Shown here in pieces: positions 9,667 through 20,152 of a stretch of DNA of 38,369 bases. The notes under the pieces are model-generated. The model made no database searches. It saw only the letters and a list, made by a program, of their open reading frames with translations, and was not told the DNA's origin. The number at the start of each line of letters is the position of its first letter. The stretch's first letter is position 1. The stretch is from Prosthecobacter sp. GTDB taxonomy: Bacteria; Verrucomicrobiota; Verrucomicrobiia; Verrucomicrobiales; Verrucomicrobiaceae. The stretch is taken from positions 1-38,369 of the forward strand of contig NZ_JAQSEA010000145.1 of the NCBI RefSeq assembly GCF_029946185.1. Reading direction: 5' to 3'. The position numbers and the translations under genes are program-made.

Positions 9667-9730
9667 TTCGTTAAAAATTTCATGTTTTAGACTTGCCGCC
9701 CCGGCATTCATTCGCTAAAAAAATAACGAA
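9667..9730 (+). promoter_or_regulatory. Candidate promoter and BlaI-type operator
   Basis: TTGCCG (9693-9698) and TAAAAA (9716-9721), 17 bases apart, form a possible promoter. Overlapping its -10 box and abutting the ATG is an imperfect palindrome, TTCGCTA-N6-TAACGAA (9711-9730, one mismatch between the arms). A third half-site, TTCGTTA, lies at 9667-9673. BlaI/MecI-family repressors bind dyads in their own promoters, so autorepression is plausible. The half-site differs from the TACA/TGTA type known from staphylococci. Confidence 0.4.
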
Positions 9731-10117
9731 ATGTCCGACTCAACTCAATTTTCCCGGCGCGAGCGCCAGATCATGAACGTCCTGCACGCGGAGGGCAGCG
9801 CCACGGTGGCGACGGTGCAGGCCCGGCTGCCGGACCCGCCGACGGACATGGCGGTGCGGCGGCTGATGCACATTCTGGAGGAGAAGGGTCATGTGAAGCG
9901 TCTGCGCAAAGAAGGGCGCGAGGTCATTTATGCTCCGGCGCAGTCCAAAGCCCGCGCGGGACTCAACGCACTGAAGCTGGTGCTCGACACCTTCTTCGGC
10001 GGCGCGGTGGATGAGGCGCTGGCTGCGCACCTCACCCGCAAAGACGCAGCGCTGACGGATGAGCAGACTGCGCGCATTCAGAAGCTTATCGACGAAGCAA
10101 AGAATGAAGGCCGCTGA
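9731..10117 (+). CDS. BlaI/MecI-family transcriptional repressor
   Basis: A 128-residue cytosolic winged-helix regulator of the penicillinase-repressor family. The N-terminal half has SRRERQIMNVLHAEGSATVA, then the recognition-helix region DPPTDMAVRRLMHILEEKGHVKR and the wing EGREVIYAPA. The C-terminal half, ALKLVLDTFFGGAVDEALAAHL, matches the dimerisation helices. In characterised systems the repressor is cleaved or inactivated when a BlaR1/MecR1 membrane protease is triggered. The next gene, 18 bases downstream, encodes such an M56 protease, so the pair forms a standard BlaI-BlaR1-like unit. No beta-lactamase gene is adjacent. Confidence 0.9.
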   Translation: MSDSTQFSRRERQIMNVLHAEGSATVATVQARLPDPPTDMAVRRLMHILEEKGHVKRLRKEGREVIYAPAQSKARAGLNALKLVLDTFFGGAVDEALAAHLTRKDAALTDEQTARIQKLIDEAKNEGR

Positions 10118-10135: not shown

Positions 10136-13100
10136 ATGAACACGACACCGCTGCTCGAACTCCTCTCACACACGGCGATGAAAGGCGCGGCGGTGCTTCT
10201 GGTGGCGCTGCTCCTCGGCCTGATCTTGCACACGACGGCTGCCTCACGGCGCTACGCCATTTGGATCACCGCTATTGCTGCGCTGGCTGTTTTACCGTTG
10301 GCGATGTGGGCGCTGCCTGCATGGCGTGTGCTGCCGAAGGCGACGTCTGAGATGGACTGGCCGATTATGGAAGAGCCGTTGGTCAGCGACCGTGCAGCAA
10401 ACCTTCTGCCGTTGGCAAATCGTGGCGTCACTTCAGCTGTTGCCAAATCTGAAGTGTTGCTGCCCGCCCAGGCTGTGGCCGAGCCTGCCTTCTCTTGGAA
10501 TGTTTCATGGCAGGATGTGGTAGTCGCGCTGCCGGTGGTGTGGCTGTTCATTGCAGCCCTGCTGCTGCTGCGCCTTGGGTGGAGCGCGTGGTGTTTGTGT
10601 CGGTTGGAGCGGCATTTGCAGGCTGGAAGCTGTGAGCAAGTGGCTGAAATCGCGCGGGAGATCGGTCTGCGTCGATTGCCGCAGCTTTGGCTCGGTGCCG
10701 CCGATGCGGTGCCGATGGTCTGGGGTGTCTTGAAACCACGCCTGCTGCTGCCACAAGGATTTGAAACTTGGAGCCGCGAAAAACAACGTGGTGTGCTGCT
10801 GCATGAGCTGGCGCATTTGAAACGTGGCGATCCTCTTGCGCTATGGGCCGCGCAATGGGTGAAGGCGCTGCATTGGTTCAATCCGCTTGTGTGGCTTACG
10901 TTCCGCCAGTTGCGTGCGGATCAGGAGCGCGCCTGCGACGATGCCGTGCTGCGGCATGGCGTGCGTGCCAGCGACTACGCGCAGGCACTTCTTGACCTCA
11001 GCCGCCACAACCGACTTGCTCCCGGGCTGGCGCTTTGTGCGCTGACCATCACCCGTTGCGCTCCTGTGGAGGCGCGGGTGAAAGCCATCCTTGACCCGAC
11101 GCGTCGCCGCGAAGGTCTGACGCTGCGCTGGCTAGCCGGACTGGCCGGTGGTGCCCTGCTCATCACCCTCCCTGTGGCGATGCTCCATGCGATTGAAGGC
11201 CACGCGCTGCGCGGCCGTATTTTGGACCGCAACGGGGTGGTGCTGGCGGAGAGCACGAAGGAGAAGGTGCGGGTTTATCCGCTCAAGACGCTGGCGGCGC
11301 ATGTGGTGGGATATACCCGACTGCCAGATTCAGATGACGCAAGACTGCATGGGGGTGCCGGAGTGGAGAAGAAGGAGGATCTCGCATTGAAAGCAGGCAA
11401 CGATTTCACTCTCTCACTCGACGCACGCATTCAGGCCGTGACGCAGCAGGCGATGAAGGATGGGGGCGTGGAGCGTGGCGCAGTGGTGGTGCTTGATCCA
11501 CGGACGGGAGAAATACTGGCCTCCGTTTCCTTGCCCAGCTATGACCCGAATCTTTGTATTCCTTCCATCAGTTACAAGAACTGGGATCGCTACCTCACGG
11601 ATGTGGACCAGCCGCTGTTGAACCGTGTGGTGAAAGGGAATGTGCCGGGCGACGCATTCACGCCACTGACTGCTCTAGCAGCCATTTCGAAGGGTCTAGG
11701 GGATAAGACCTTCAATTGCCGGCGCGCGACCACCAGCTACCAGTCCAAGTTCGAGTGCCTGCAAATCAGGCAGGGAGGAAAGGGGCATGGAACCATCGGA
11801 GTGGAACAAGCACTTCAGACCTCATGCAGACATTACTGGTGTCAGCTGGGAATGCTGGCGGGTTTCGATGCGCTTGGCAAAATGGGAAAAGACATCGGTT
11901 TTGGTCAGCGCTACGGGGCTCTCGAGGATGAGGACTCAGGGGTATTGCCGACGCAGGAATGGTGGGAGAAACGCCGCCAAGGCAAGAGGGCATGGTCGGA
12001 AGACAACACCGCGTCTCTGGCGGAAGGCTATGGCTATGCGAGTGTGACTCCGCTGCAGATGGCTGTCCTGGCCGCGACAGTAGCAAATTCTGGGAGAGTA
12101 CCCCAACCCACACTAACAATGACCGCCAAGACCGGATGGCGGGCCGATTTGATCAAAGAGGGCCTCTCCGCATCTCAAATCGAGAAACTGCGCGAAGGCA
12201 TGCGTCTTGCAGTGAACAGCGAATCCGGCAGCGGCCGGAGTGCGCGCAGCGGGAAGGTGATGATCGCAGGTAAAACTGGCGCAACGAAAGGTGTGAGTCG
12301 CACGGACAAAGGTGAACTGATTGAAAGGAATAATTCCTGGTTCATTGGCTTTGCTCCGTTCGACCAGCCAACGTTTGCCTTTGCCATTCTGAATCAAGGT
12401 GGCAAGACGGTTGGCGACTGCGCCCCCATTGCGAAGCGCATCGTGGAGGAAATTCTGGCTCTTCCTGCGGATGGCTCGGGAGAGGTAAAGCCAGTGGAGG
12501 AAAAGAGTGCGACAGCTCCGACGAAGTTCGACTTCGATGCCGCTGAGACTTCACGCCAGATCAAGGCGCTGTCAGCGGAAGCCGGAATCATCATCAAGGA
12601 GTTCAAGATGGGGCAGGGCAACGTGTCCATCCTCGGCGAGGCCGCAGGCATGTTACCGGCCAGGAATTATCAGTTCAAACTGATGCAGCTGGGCAAAGAG
12701 CGGAATATTCAATGGACTGTGCCAACAACCCGAGAGATGGACAACAAAGGCGTGCGCATTGAAGCCAGCGGTGTCTATGAAGCTGAGGCGCCGAATGACG
12801 TGCCAGCAACCGCAGCGCCCAAGCCCGCGAGTGAGGCGGCGATGCGGCAGCAGAGCGATGCTGCGGTCCGCATGAGGCCTGTGCTGGCAAACCAATGGGC
12901 GCAGTTGAAAAAAATCGGACTGCTGGCTGATCTACCAGCAGAAGCGCGGCCGTTTGACACGGGTGAAAGCGAAGAAAGTCGTGTGAAAAGTGGGCTGCAG
13001 TTCCGCTTCGATGTTTCGCGCGGGGCAGGACATCGGTGGTTGCTCGCCACAGTGTATAGGTCGAAAAACGTGGATGAAGCGTCTCTCCAGTGGCCTGAAC

Positions 13101-13576
13101 CACCGGAGGCGTTTCATCGCACCTATGCGGCTGCCGGCCATTGTTCGATCTCGATTCTCAGCTCTGACGGCGAGCACCTGATCATCATCGTCTCCCAGCA
13201 GAAATGGTCTATGCTGATCGCGCCGGATGAGTTTCAGGAACCACGGCCTGCGGGCAAGCTGGCTCCTGAGTATAAGCAGGAAGGTTTCACCTTGGTTGCA
13301 CCCAAAGCGCCCACTCTCAACCCGGCACTGCAAGACGTGCTCTCGACGATTTCGCAGGAAGAGGCGCTGCGTCCGAGAGCTTTCTGGCCTCCACCAAATC
13401 AAATAATACATCTGCAAACTCCTCTCATCCCGTCTTACGTCCCTAGAGAGGTGTTGCATGCGCCGTTGCATCGCCTCGCTGGAGAATTCAGCGCCGAATC
13501 CGAAGAAGCGCTGCTACGCAACTCGCAGAGCAGTCGTCGCTGGCAACAGGCTTTGGTCGTACGTTTGCCACAGTAA
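10136..13576 (+). CDS. BlaR1-like M56 metallopeptidase fused to a degenerate PBP2-like transpeptidase domain
   Basis: This 1146-residue membrane protein has three parts. Residues 1 to about 350 form a BlaR1/MecR1-type M56 protease with about four membrane helices, a zinc motif HELAH (223-227) and the downstream glutamate in ADQERACDD (E264). Residues about 357-785 resemble a class B PBP (PBP2): RGRILDRNGVVLAES, LSLDARIQAV, GAVVVLDPRTGEILASVSLPSYDPN, and KTG at 713-715 in IAGKTGATKG. The SxxK active site, normally PGSTFKP, reads PGDAFTP (D506, T509), and the SxN motif reads SCR (563-565). Catalytic Ser and Lys are therefore absent. Residues about 790-1146 are unrecognised. By BlaR1 topology the PBP-like part lies outside the membrane. 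The domain may sense peptidoglycan ligands non-covalently and trigger cleavage of the BlaI-like protein; that role is inference. Confidence 0.88.
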   Translation: MNTTPLLELLSHTAMKGAAVLLVALLLGLILHTTAASRRYAIWITAIAALAVLPLAMWALPAWRVLPKATSEMDWPIMEEPLVSDRAANLLPLANRGVTSAVAKSEVLLPAQAVAEPAFSWNVSWQDVVVALPVVWLFIAALLLLRLGWSAWCLCRLERHLQAGSCEQVAEIAREIGLRRLPQLWLGAADAVPMVWGVLKPRLLLPQGFETWSREKQRGVLLHELAHLKRGDPLALWAAQWVKALHWFNPLVWLTFRQLRADQERACDDAVLRHGVRASDYAQALLDLSRHNRLAPGLALCALTITRCAPVEARVKAILDPTRRREGLTLRWLAGLAGGALLITLPVAMLHAIEGHALRGRILDRNGVVLAESTKEKVRVYPLKTLAAHVVGYTRLPDSDDARLHGGAGVEKKEDLALKAGNDFTLSLDARIQAVTQQAMKDGGVERGAVVVLDPRTGEILASVSLPSYDPNLCIPSISYKNWDRYLTDVDQPLLNRVVKGNVPGDAFTPLTALAAISKGLGDKTFNCRRATTSYQSKFECLQIRQGGKGHGTIGVEQALQTSCRHYWCQLGMLAGFDALGKMGKDIGFGQRYGALEDEDSGVLPTQEWWEKRRQGKRAWSEDNTASLAEGYGYASVTPLQMAVLAATVANSGRVPQPTLTMTAKTGWRADLIKEGLSASQIEKLREGMRLAVNSESGSGRSARSGKVMIAGKTGATKGVSRTDKGELIERNNSWFIGFAPFDQPTFAFAILNQGGKTVGDCAPIAKRIVEEILALPADGSGEVKPVEEKSATAPTKFDFDAAETSRQIKALSAEAGIIIKEFKMGQGNVSILGEAAGMLPARNYQFKLMQLGKERNIQWTVPTTREMDNKGVRIEASGVYEAEAPNDVPATAAPKPASEAAMRQQSDAAVRMRPVLANQWAQLKKIGLLADLPAEARPFDTGESEESRVKSGLQFRFDVSRGAGHRWLLATVYRSKNVDEASLQWPEPPEAFHRTYAAAGHCSISILSSDGEHLIIIVSQQKWSMLIAPDEFQEPRPAGKLAPEYKQEGFTLVAPKAPTLNPALQDVLSTISQEEALRPRAFWPPPNQIIHLQTPLIPSYVPREVLHAPLHRLAGEFSAESEEALLRNSQSSRRWQQALVVRLPQ

Positions 13577-13976: not shown

Positions 13977-14828
13977 TTACTTCGTTTGCCCCAGCAGGCC
14001 GCTGTCTGTGAGCCACTCGGTGAAGCGGGTGGGCCAGCGGGAGGCGGCGGTGGGTTTTGCGTCGGCTTTGTAGCCGAAGCCGTGGCCGGCGTTGGCGAAG
14101 ATGTGCATCTCGGCTTTCACACCGGCGGCTTTGTATTTGAGGTAGAGAGTGGCCATGCCTTCGGAGATGTCTGGGCGGTCGCTGTAACCGGCGGCGATGA
14201 AGAGCGGGGGCATGCCTTTGGTGGCATTGAAAAGACCGGAGGTGCCGGGGTAGATGAGGCCTTGGAAGTCGGGGCGGCTGGACTGCTGCTCTATGGGATC
14301 TGGGGATTCTTTGTGGCCGGGATCGTTGGTCATGGCGGCAAAGGCGGCGAGCTCGCCGCCGGCGGAGAAGCCGAGGATGCCGATGCGGTCCGGCTGGATG
14401 TGCCACTCGGGGGCACGGCTGCGGACGGTGCGGATGGCGCGGCGGGCGTCGGCCATGGCGTGGTCCTGAATGGTGTAGGTGCTGCCGGGTTCGCGGGCGA
14501 GGCGGTATTTCAGTACAAAGGCGGCGATGCCGTGATCACGGAACCATTCCGCCAAGGCGTAGCCCTCATGACCGAGGCAGAGCTTGGAATGGCCACCGCC
14601 GGGGCAGATGATGACGGCGGTGCCGGTGGATTTGTCTGCGGCGGAGACGAACGGGGTGAGGGTGGGCTTATGGATGTTGCAGACGTTGCTGCCTTCGATT
14701 TTCTCGGGTTCGGCGGCGCGTGCCTCTGAACCGGGGGCTCCTTGGGGCCAGAGGGGAAGGGCGGCGGGGGTGTCTGCGGCGGAGAGCGCGAGAGGCAGAA
14801 AAAGGCTGGCGAGGAGGGAGCGGAGCAT
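13977..14828 (-). CDS. Secreted alpha/beta-hydrolase esterase (acetyl-xylan-esterase-like)
   Basis: The 283-residue protein begins with a signal peptide (MLRSLLASLFLPLALSAA) and is likely periplasmic or exported. The alpha/beta-hydrolase core shows the oxyanion segment ICPGGGH (about residues 74-80), the nucleophile elbow GFSAGG with Ser at about 155, an Asp in GYSDRPD (about 217-220), and the catalytic His in NAGHGFG (about 249). This is the pattern of the BD-FAE/acetyl-xylan-esterase-like enzymes abundant in Planctomycetes and Verrucomicrobia, which remove acetyl or other acyl groups from polysaccharides. The exact substrate is unknown. It is a single gene, transcribed away from rpmH and towards the M56/PBP gene. 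Confidence 0.85.
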   Translation of the reverse strand: MLRSLLASLFLPLALSAADTPAALPLWPQGAPGSEARAAEPEKIEGSNVCNIHKPTLTPFVSAADKSTGTAVIICPGGGHSKLCLGHEGYALAEWFRDHGIAAFVLKYRLAREPGSTYTIQDHAMADARRAIRTVRSRAPEWHIQPDRIGILGFSAGGELAAFAAMTNDPGHKESPDPIEQQSSRPDFQGLIYPGTSGLFNATKGMPPLFIAAGYSDRPDISEGMATLYLKYKAAGVKAEMHIFANAGHGFGYKADAKPTAASRWPTRFTEWLTDSGLLGQTK

Positions 14829-18311: not shown

Positions 18312-18451
18312 GGCAAGGCCCTTCCTTTGCATGGAGGAAAATGAGCTTCGTTCTTTACTCGGGGTGTGGTTTTGAGTTATTTCTTATAACTCGCGCAAAT
18401 TGCTGCGCGCCTGCACACCCTGCCCCCTTCTTCAAACAACCCCGTATTCCC

Positions 18452-20152
18452 ATGAAATTGAGCCGCTACCAGCCTGTCGTACTTGCCCTTGCCTGCAGCG
18501 TGGGATTTTTGCACGCCGATGTCGTGACCCTTAAGGACGGCAAAAAACTGGAAGGCAACATTCTTTCCGAGACGCCCACGTCGATCCGGATGAAGTATCA
18601 CCTGACGCCGAAGATCATGGATGAAAAGGACATCCTGCGCAGCGAGATCGCTGAAGGGGGCATCCTCAAGCAGAAGCCGGAAGAAGTGGAGATTATCGAA
18701 ATTCGGAAGGCCGTTCCGACCCCGGACCTGCTGTCGGCGGAAAAATACGAGCAGCTCATTCAGGACCGGCTGCGTCCTTTCGTGAACCGCTACCCCGGCA
18801 CGAAGGAAGCGGCTGAAGTGGAGGGCATGATCAAAGAGGTGCAGGAGGAAAAGGAAAAGGTCGTGGCCGGCGGCGCGAAGCTGGAAGGCAAATGGCTTAC
18901 CCGTGAAGAGGCGAAGGCAGAGGGTCTCAACATCAAGGCTTACGCGATCCGTGCGGCGATGCTGGAGAAAATACAGGCCAAGGACTTCTCCGGTGCGCTC
19001 AAGGAATTCGACAAACTCAACGACCCGAAAAGCGGCAATCCGGCCTCGGTTTATTATCCCAAGGCCGTCGCAGAGATTCTCGTCGTTCTGACATCGTACG
19101 ATAAGCAACTCGCGCAGATGACGCAGGACCAGCCCGCCTTGCAGAGGATCCGTGAGGAGAGTGTCAAGAGACTCATCGAGCCTGACCTGACGCGGATGAA
19201 CGACGCCGTTAAACGCGAAAAGGAGAACTGGCGGACCACCTTTGAATCGGAGCGGAAGTCGAGCAAATGGTTTACCCCATACAAATACGATCTGGAGAGC
19301 TTGAAGACGCTCAGCAAAACCGTCACCGAAACCAAGGACGCTCTGAGTGCTCTCGATTTAGGCTTGATCACCAAAGTGAACGAAGCCATCCAACGAATGC
19401 TTCGTGCGGATGCCAAGGCAGGCAAGGACAAGGCGGAACTTACCAAGATGGGTGAGGCCATCATTGAAGGTGAAGGCGTCGCAGGAAATGCTGATGGCCC
19501 CGTCAAAGAATTCTACCGCGAAGTCTTCACCAACTACCGCGCCCGTCATGCCTACTTTGCCCAGCAGGTGAACACGCCGCAGGGGCAGACGCAGCCTGCC
19601 GCCGCCGGTGCCGTCGGAGGCTCCTCGGCCATCGCTGGCTCGGCCGCACCTGGCATGGATGATAAAGTGGCGGCAGCACTCGCTGCAGCGAGTGGCAACC
19701 CAGCCCCCGCTAATGGTACGACGCCCCCTGCGGATGGTACGGCGCCGGGAGCCATGCCCGCGACACAACCCAACGGCTACCCTGCGCAGCAGGGTGGTGT
19801 GCCTCCGGGAGGCCAGCCGCAACAGCCTGGTTACGCGCAGCAGCCTCAACAGCCTGGCTATGGCCAGCCGCAGCAGCCTGGTTACGCGCAGCAGCCTCAA
19901 CAGCCTGGCTATGGCCAGCCGCAGCAGCCTGGTTACGCGCAGCAGCCTCAACAGCCCGGCTATGGCCAGCCGCAGCAGCCTGGTTACGCGCAGCAGCCGC
20001 AGCCCGGCTACGGCCAGCCTCAGGCCGGGGCGCCCATGCCTCCAGCTGAGGAAGAGGGCATGAGCATGATGACCATGATCCTCATCGGTATTGGCGTGGT
20101 CGTCCTTGTGCTCCTTCTCACCCTCCTTGGCGGCAAGAAGAAGAAAAAGTGA
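18452..20152 (+). CDS. PTPDL-type secreted protein with PQQPGY repeats and C-terminal membrane anchor
   Basis: I place the start at ATG 18452, where MKLSRYQPVVLALACSVGFLHA forms a signal peptide; the longer upstream frame lacks one. The mature N-terminus DVVTLKDGKKLEGNILSETPTSIRMKY resembles a small beta-barrel seen in Verrucomicrobial secreted proteins. It is followed by IRKAVPTPDLLSAEKYEQL, the PTPDL motif that names a Verrucomicrobial family. A long helical middle follows, then an Ala/Pro/Gly-rich linker, then 17-residue repeats (QQPGYAQQPQQPGYGQP). The C-terminal hydrophobic segment MTMILIGIGVVVLVLLLTLL ends in GGKKKKK, a tail anchor with cytoplasmic lysines. The protein is thus tethered with its bulk outside the cytoplasm. 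Function unknown. Confidence 0.8.
   Translation: MKLSRYQPVVLALACSVGFLHADVVTLKDGKKLEGNILSETPTSIRMKYHLTPKIMDEKDILRSEIAEGGILKQKPEEVEIIEIRKAVPTPDLLSAEKYEQLIQDRLRPFVNRYPGTKEAAEVEGMIKEVQEEKEKVVAGGAKLEGKWLTREEAKAEGLNIKAYAIRAAMLEKIQAKDFSGALKEFDKLNDPKSGNPASVYYPKAVAEILVVLTSYDKQLAQMTQDQPALQRIREESVKRLIEPDLTRMNDAVKREKENWRTTFESERKSSKWFTPYKYDLESLKTLSKTVTETKDALSALDLGLITKVNEAIQRMLRADAKAGKDKAELTKMGEAIIEGEGVAGNADGPVKEFYREVFTNYRARHAYFAQQVNTPQGQTQPAAAGAVGGSSAIAGSAAPGMDDKVAAALAAASGNPAPANGTTPPADGTAPGAMPATQPNGYPAQQGGVPPGGQPQQPGYAQQPQQPGYGQPQQPGYAQQPQQPGYGQPQQPGYAQQPQQPGYGQPQQPGYAQQPQPGYGQPQAGAPMPPAEEEGMSMMTMILIGIGVVVLVLLLTLLGGKKKKK
19820..20020 (+). repeat. 51-bp tandem repeat inside the PTPDL gene
   Basis: The unit starting cagcctggttacgcgcag recurs at 19823, 19874, 19925 and 19976, a spacing of exactly 51 bases (17 codons). 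There are three full copies and a shorter fourth that lacks six bases. Copies are almost identical at the DNA level, with a few silent changes in the last ones. Copy number could vary between strains without shifting the frame. Confidence 0.95.

Follow-up and report, generated by a model that had tools for sequence, protein, structure and literature searches.

M56-BlaI switches are known mainly as penicillin sensors. The question raised by one locus of a Prosthecobacter sp. genome (assembly GCF_029946185.1, contig NZ_JAQSEA010000145.1, positions 1 to 38,369) is what such a switch would sense once its sensor has lost the serine and lysine needed for acylation. In this stretch of 38,369 nucleotides, called the window below, a gene for a BlaI-family repressor is followed by a single open reading frame (ORF) that joins an M56 protease, a transpeptidase domain of the penicillin-binding protein 2 (PBP2) type and a long tail. 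The active site is dead in the window protein and damaged in many of its relatives, and M56-PBP switches with a lost active site probably sense something other than penicillin. The features of the fusion are as follows.

10136 to 13576, plus strand: fusion ORF of 1146 residues (M56 protease, PBP2-type pseudo-transpeptidase, tail)
10169 to 11089, plus strand: M56 peptidase domain, residues 12-318 (Pfam Peptidase_M56, PF05569, E 1.8e-39)
10313 to 10507, plus strand: loop of 65 residues (60-124) between helices 2 and 3, at the position of the EL1 loop of BlaR1
10802 to 10816, plus strand: HELAH of the M56 domain (H223, E224, H227)
10925 to 10927, plus strand: distal Glu264 of the M56 domain
11204 to 11383, plus strand: pedestal remnant of a class B PBP, residues about 357-416
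11477 to 12448, plus strand: PBP2-type transpeptidase domain, residues 448-771 (Pfam Transpeptidase, PF00905, E 7.9e-47)
11645 to 11665, plus strand: motif 1, PGDAFTP replacing PGSTFKx, residues 504-510 (Ser to Asp506, Lys to Thr509)
11822 to 11830, plus strand: motif 2, SCR replacing SxN, residues 563-565
12272 to 12280, plus strand: motif 3, KTG, intact, residues 713-715

The three motifs were read by alignment on the PGSTFKx, SCN and KTG of intact PBPs, a comparison that bears out the dead site and intact KTG described in an earlier, sequence-only reading of this DNA. That reading had also called the domain PBP2-like, and the call stands. The nearest NCBIfam model of the transpeptidase domain is PBP2/MrdA (TIGR03423; E 8.3e-86, 288.8 bits, below the cutoff of 455), and the best chain in a Foldseek search with the AlphaFold2 (AF2) model is PBP2 of P. 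aeruginosa (7kis_B, TM 0.82 by target length). The sole class D model among the NCBIfam matches listed for the window protein reached 14.9 bits. The best stretch of the PBP_dimer profile (180 positions) is 4-22 in the window protein and, among the relatives scanned, either the first 22 or so or about positions 102-165. As matches are confined to the ends of the profile, the window protein apparently lacks the PBP head.

The protease part has kept its catalytic residues. HExxH is present in all 25 M56-PBP fusions gathered, and H223, E224, H227 and E264 are unchanged across the 16 fusions of one alignment (A2), in accord with the motif and the distal glutamate first noticed from the letters. Four membrane helices had been proposed as well; in the AF2 model (mean pLDDT 71, pTM 0.47) the predicted helices 4-30, 36-59, 125-160 and 330-349 are compatible with them. 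The loop between helices 2 and 3 is modelled with low confidence over residues 60-122, is 61-81 residues long in the 16 fusions and, of four pairs scanned, shows low identity in three. The NCBIfam model blaR1_generic gives the window protein 83.6 bits, below its cutoff of 400.

Of the 25 fusions gathered, 24 belong to the window's order of Verrucomicrobia and one (G573) lies elsewhere in the class; both counts are lower bounds. A scan of 386 genomes of the order gave 22 fusions among the matches listed, and a scan of 286 genomes of the class (234 outside the order) added G093 and G120 (in the order) and G573 (outside) among the matches listed. At least 10 of the 48 scanned genomes of the focal genus carry a fusion. 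Lys is lost in 14 of the 25 and Ser in nine. Both residues are retained in 11 and neither in nine, five have Ser without Lys, and none has Lys without Ser. The full SxxK, SxN and K[TS]G set is found in five (G037, G067, G091, G166 and G573). All three motifs are intact in each of the 20 unfused class B PBPs compared. They represent 18 genomes, including 15 fusion carriers; ten other carriers (G015, G170, G259, G298, G116, G122, G275, G573, G093 and G120) are outside the set. A local mutation of the window gene is thereby ruled out, since Lys is gone in 14 and Ser in nine of the fusions, and close homologues do not all keep SxxK. As judged from these motifs, the family is a mixture of possibly acylatable and non-acylatable sensors. 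The claim that the sensor cannot be acylated at the normal site agrees with the loss of Ser and Lys in the window domain and does not extend to the five relatives with the full set.

Some related loci carry one part of the fusion. G016 and G057 have an M56 protein with no PBP match. G213 and G165 have a PBP module without M56; they stand outside the 25, yet were included in the tree and the first clade test described below. In G213 (L125:1725-4112) the family's PBP module and tail have no M56 or BlaI match upstream. The unfused PBP2 proteins of G213 and G029 are 98% identical, whereas the fusion-family PBP modules of these two genomes are 59% identical. Among the 38 loci listed from a scan of a genome collection, one (L085) spans both domains; the others are M56-only matches, bar one PBP-only match. 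A viral scan gave five loci, with every match inside residues 135-319 of M56. Neither an M56-PBP2 fusion nor a dead PBP attached to an M56 sensor is named in the titles and abstracts listed from the open-licence literature searched.

The dead motifs of the window domain are more than chance, because G028, the nearest relative found, has motifs identical to those of the window genome (G000) and the domain shows constraint on nonsynonymous change. A second pair, G021 and G002, has nearly identical dead motifs. The ratio of nonsynonymous to synonymous change (dN/dS) of the PBP region, estimated pairwise and with the loss assumed to predate each split, is 0.27 for G000-G028 (bootstrap 0.20-0.36) and 0.24 for G021-G002 (bootstrap 0.15-0.37), the two pairs bootstrapped. 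Unfused PBP2 gives a lower value, 0.07, in each of these pairs. By these estimates the dead PBP domains are under purifying selection in the two pairs tested. Sixty residues that are invariant in unfused PBPs are retained on average at 64% in the nine dead domains; Ser, Lys and one Leu are retained in none of the nine.

A tree of 47 PBP domains, made with the motif columns excluded, requires five changes of Ser and five of Lys; support is weak for 13 of its 44 inner branches. On this tree the fusion domains do not form a single clade. Three fusions of the f4 group cluster with the unfused PBP2 of their own genomes (support 100/99), and the domain of G166 clusters with another class B PBP (support 100/92). 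A single clade for all fusion rows except G166 was rejected (approximately unbiased test, p 0.013), as was a single-clade constraint from which G275, G093, G120 and G573 were additionally left out (p 0.019). These results favour capture of a PBP domain by M56 switches at least two times, and no more is claimed because the groups were picked after the tree was seen, and the tree has long branches and an uncertain root; the outgroup, two unfused class B PBPs, does not form one side of any branch. Capture from FtsI was considered and rejected: these two outgroup rows, first taken for ftsI, are nearest TIGR03423 (452 and 357 bits).

Within the gene, the PBP part has its own pattern of divergence. 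Synonymous distances (dS) were compared along twelve pairs, with saturation close once a value exceeds about 1: dS is 0.59 in M56 vs 1.77 in PBP for G012-G028 and 0.68 vs 0.16 for G021-G002, and there is no sharp difference for G032-G015 (1.13 and 1.46). Sliding nucleotide identity was run on four pairs. In G021-G002 it is 95-99% over the PBP core and about 75-88% over both flanks. The sequence immediately after the M56 part in G057 resembles, by eye, a module of the window tail. The simplest reading of these comparisons is that the PBP segment has been exchanged, gained or lost as a cassette in some pairs. In fusions of the focal genus, a fast-changing PBP part that behaves as exchangeable lies between a protease and a tail that are more conserved.

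The tail of the window protein is 364 residues long (783-1146), and a Pfam search of it gave no match. Two modules were delimited.

12521 to 12790, plus strand: tail module 1, residues about 796-885, ferredoxin-like, of PilO/GspL type by fold
12878 to 13198, plus strand: tail module 2, residues about 915-1021, the part to which the sequence directly after M56 in G057 is similar by eye

The predicted fold of module 1 aligns with PilO (Z 11.4, 86 residues, root-mean-square deviation 2.9) and with PulL (Z 11.0, 72 residues, deviation 1.7); designed proteins of the same fold also attain Z 9. The AF2 model of the tail is weak (mean pLDDT 63), and Foldseek with that weak model gave nothing at E 0.001 or better. 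Part of the tail resembles another ORF of the same genome (profile match, E 1.9e-11), which itself has a weak, sub-cutoff match to PilN. Because of the Foldseek result and the scores of the designed proteins, the assignment is based on the fold together with this sequence match. The sequence-only reading had counted about 360 unrecognised C-terminal residues; their number and the lack of a Pfam match were confirmed, and residues 796-885 or so can now be described as PilO/GspL-like. Tails vary among the fusions. For example, an MreC barrel (PF04085) is found in those of G021 and G002 (E 1.4e-31 and 2.1e-31). In these two proteins (L042:3627-8054 and L043:1394-5452) the third motif is lost too (LAD). 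The G124 fusion (L123:2996-6298) has an FGE-sulfatase domain at its C-terminus.

The second component of the switch lies immediately upstream of the fusion, with operator-like boxes before it.

9669 to 9684, plus strand: operator box 1, CGTTAAAAATTTCATG, upstream of blaI and conserved in the focal genus
9692 to 9697, plus strand: CTTGCC between the boxes, -35-like; the promoter reading is our interpretation
9713 to 9728, plus strand: operator box 2, CGCTAAAAAAATAACG, likewise conserved, an inverted repeat that ends 2 nt before the blaI ATG
9731 to 10117, plus strand: BlaI/MecI-family repressor (PF03965, E 2e-21, residues 8-122)
13977 to 14828, minus strand: next gene after the fusion, convergent

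The Penicillinase_R domain of the repressor scores 76.9 bits against a gathering score of 22.6, so the BlaI-like neighbour named in the sequence-only reading is upheld. Its gene ends 18 nt before the fusion ORF. A BlaI homologue adjoins 23 of the 25 fusions, the window counted; none was found beside G067 and G091. The operator pattern CGYTAWWWWWWTARCG was derived from these promoters and is present there by construction, the rest of each genome being the test. The 19 genomes searched for it were those of 17 fusion carriers plus G016 and G057: 15 have a single copy, G016 has two, and G124, G180 and G298 have none; the reversed control is absent from all 19. All 15 single sites are directly upstream of blaI by comparison of coordinates, and box 2 is the sole exact match in the window genome. 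The extra exact copy in G016 (G016:C2:1455733-1455748) is away from the blaI locus and has no clear target. With up to one mismatch, G000 has three forward sites and the reversed control has four, so that the two sites beyond the operator itself are no more than chance would give. A search with the 19-nt form of box 1, allowing three mismatches, gave one further site, which has three mismatches, and none in the control. With no second exact copy of the operator in the window genome, the switch may act mainly on its own operon. On this pattern the same may hold for the BlaI of the focal genus, and degenerate sites may add targets. In a mechanical survey of the ORF following each fusion, the next ORF is on the other strand at seven of nine other loci of the focal genus and at eight of 15 loci outside it. 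Good support from gene order for a two-gene operon is confined to the focal genus. Farther along, the window has a 603-residue ORF (18341-20152) downstream of yidC and a KH/R3H gene; it is without a Pfam match at E 0.01.

The fusion and BlaI may form a BlaR1-like switch that senses the state of the cell wall without acylation, a reading that, with its presumed ligand and output, we regard as about evenly poised. BlaI would repress its own operon through the two boxes observed around the promoter. By analogy with BlaR1, the M56 protein would be a membrane protein whose protease faces the cytoplasm and whose apparently headless PBP2 transpeptidase fold lies outside. As Ser and Lys for acylation are lost in the window genome, this sensor is not read by ordinary covalent penicillin binding. 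Instead, the groove or a surface of the PBP domain would reversibly contact a cell-wall ligand, such as a stem peptide or muropeptide, or an elongasome protein. For BlaR1, signalling is proposed to begin when a beta-lactam keeps an extracellular loop out of the active site of the sensor, where it is otherwise bound (PMC9834060). In the window protein the reversible contact could displace the corresponding loop without acylation; the protease, as in BlaR1, would then cleave BlaI, and the main output would be more repressor and sensor. BlaI can itself be bound directly by a dipeptide from peptidoglycan turnover (PMC3305447).

Several observations weigh against this reading. The 11 relatives with both Ser and Lys, five of them with all three motifs, could be acylated. 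The motif columns are otherwise middling, not extreme, in variability among the dead domains. G016 and G057 share the BlaI-M56 locus and the operator and have no PBP match, and therefore the PBP domain is dispensable for the switch. The next ORF is on the same strand at seven of 15 loci outside the focal genus, so that co-transcribed genes are possible there. MreC is present in just two of 18 fusions scanned with Pfam. The head through which PBP2 of H. pylori makes most of its contacts with MreC (PMC5626683) is apparently missing from the window protein, which makes plain PBP2-MreC docking unlikely for it. Finally, the host genome is a 6.19-Mb draft in 317 contigs (95.9% complete).

Other explanations fit parts of this evidence. 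If the window sensor still detected beta-lactams, non-covalently or via another nucleophile, the remaining KTG and fold and the SxxK of relatives would be accounted for; Asp506 and Thr509, however, stand where Ser and Lys should be. In addition, the S301A form of PbpP of B. thuringiensis is catalytically inactive and does not activate sigma-P (PMC8092216). As a Ser-to-Ala change of PbpP does not signal, natural loss of Ser argues for a different input, and continued beta-lactam sensing is very improbable. The PBP domain could also be a decaying leftover without a role, as suggested by the loss of catalytic residues in many members, by its absence from G016 and G057, and by dN/dS above the 0.07 of unfused PBP2 in the same pairs. 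This is quite improbable, since dN/dS is well under 1, with bootstrap intervals that exclude 1, in two pairs dead on both sides, and the long open frames continue into a conserved tail beyond the domain.

The remaining alternatives give the domain a task. The induced protein may itself be the output: a membrane-held pseudo-PBP2 would sequester or block elongasome partners or substrate, and relatives with an intact site would supply an inducible extra transpeptidase. No other exact operator site in the window genome and a convergent next gene imply that the operon makes only BlaI and the fusion. BlaI, however, may bind degenerate sites outside the pattern, and what BlaR1 and MecR1 control is a resistance gene of its own (PMC3305447), which leaves this explanation improbable. 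Alternatively, the PBP domain may be bait, an integrated decoy in which attackers (inhibitors, toxins or phage proteins) bind the PBP2 or MreC mimic and trip the switch. Capture of PBP2 more than once, addition of MreC in two relatives and loss of catalysis would suit such a decoy, as would segment exchange and fast change in some pairs (dS of G012-G028 and G021-G002, and sliding identity). The MreC-binding head is apparently missing, though, and no attacker is known; exchange is possible without an arms race, and dS is similar in both parts of G032-G015. Bait in this strict sense is unlikely. A wider form, a BlaI-M56 decoy receptor whose captured copies (PBP2 more than once, MreC in one lineage), freed from catalysis and exchanged as cassettes, would be engaged by attackers or partners of the real machinery and trip the switch, is rather doubtful too.

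The captured-PBP2 sensors, in which acylation has been lost several times and the dead pairs tested appear to be under selection, provide a natural series from intact sites through Lys lost and both lost to all motifs lost. With such a series one can ask which signals other than beta-lactams a PBP2 fold responds to, and whether a covalent sensor degenerates into one that reads the wall state non-covalently. A reporter test would be simple, given the single operator.

The likeness to known systems is partial in each case. BlaR1/MecR1 with BlaI/MecI share with the window pair the M56 zincin with HExxH and distal Glu, the membrane helices (predicted for the window protein), the loop between helices 2 and 3, a putative C-terminal sensor after the last helix and an adjacent BlaI repressor. 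Unlike them, the window protein has a PBP2-type instead of a class D-like sensor, has lost Ser and Lys and carries extra tail modules, and its predicted operon is without a beta-lactamase or resistance PBP gene. PBP2 (MrdA) has in common with the window domain the transpeptidase fold, the best NCBIfam match (TIGR03423) and KTG. The window domain differs in scoring below the TIGR03423 cutoff, in its apparently missing head and in its fusion to M56; with DAFT, SCR and KTG it falls short of the SxxK, SxN/SxD and KTG of that family. PbpP, the sensor of sigma-P in Bacillus thuringiensis, is likewise a PBP that serves as a signalling sensor (PMC8092216), but its Ser-to-Ala mutant is silent and its output is an ECF sigma factor, whereas the window protein naturally lacks Ser and is paired with BlaI. 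The window system would work like BlaR1, yet it is not classed as BlaR1, because in place of an acylatable SxxK sensor of the class D-like type it has a PBP2-type domain with D506 and T509.

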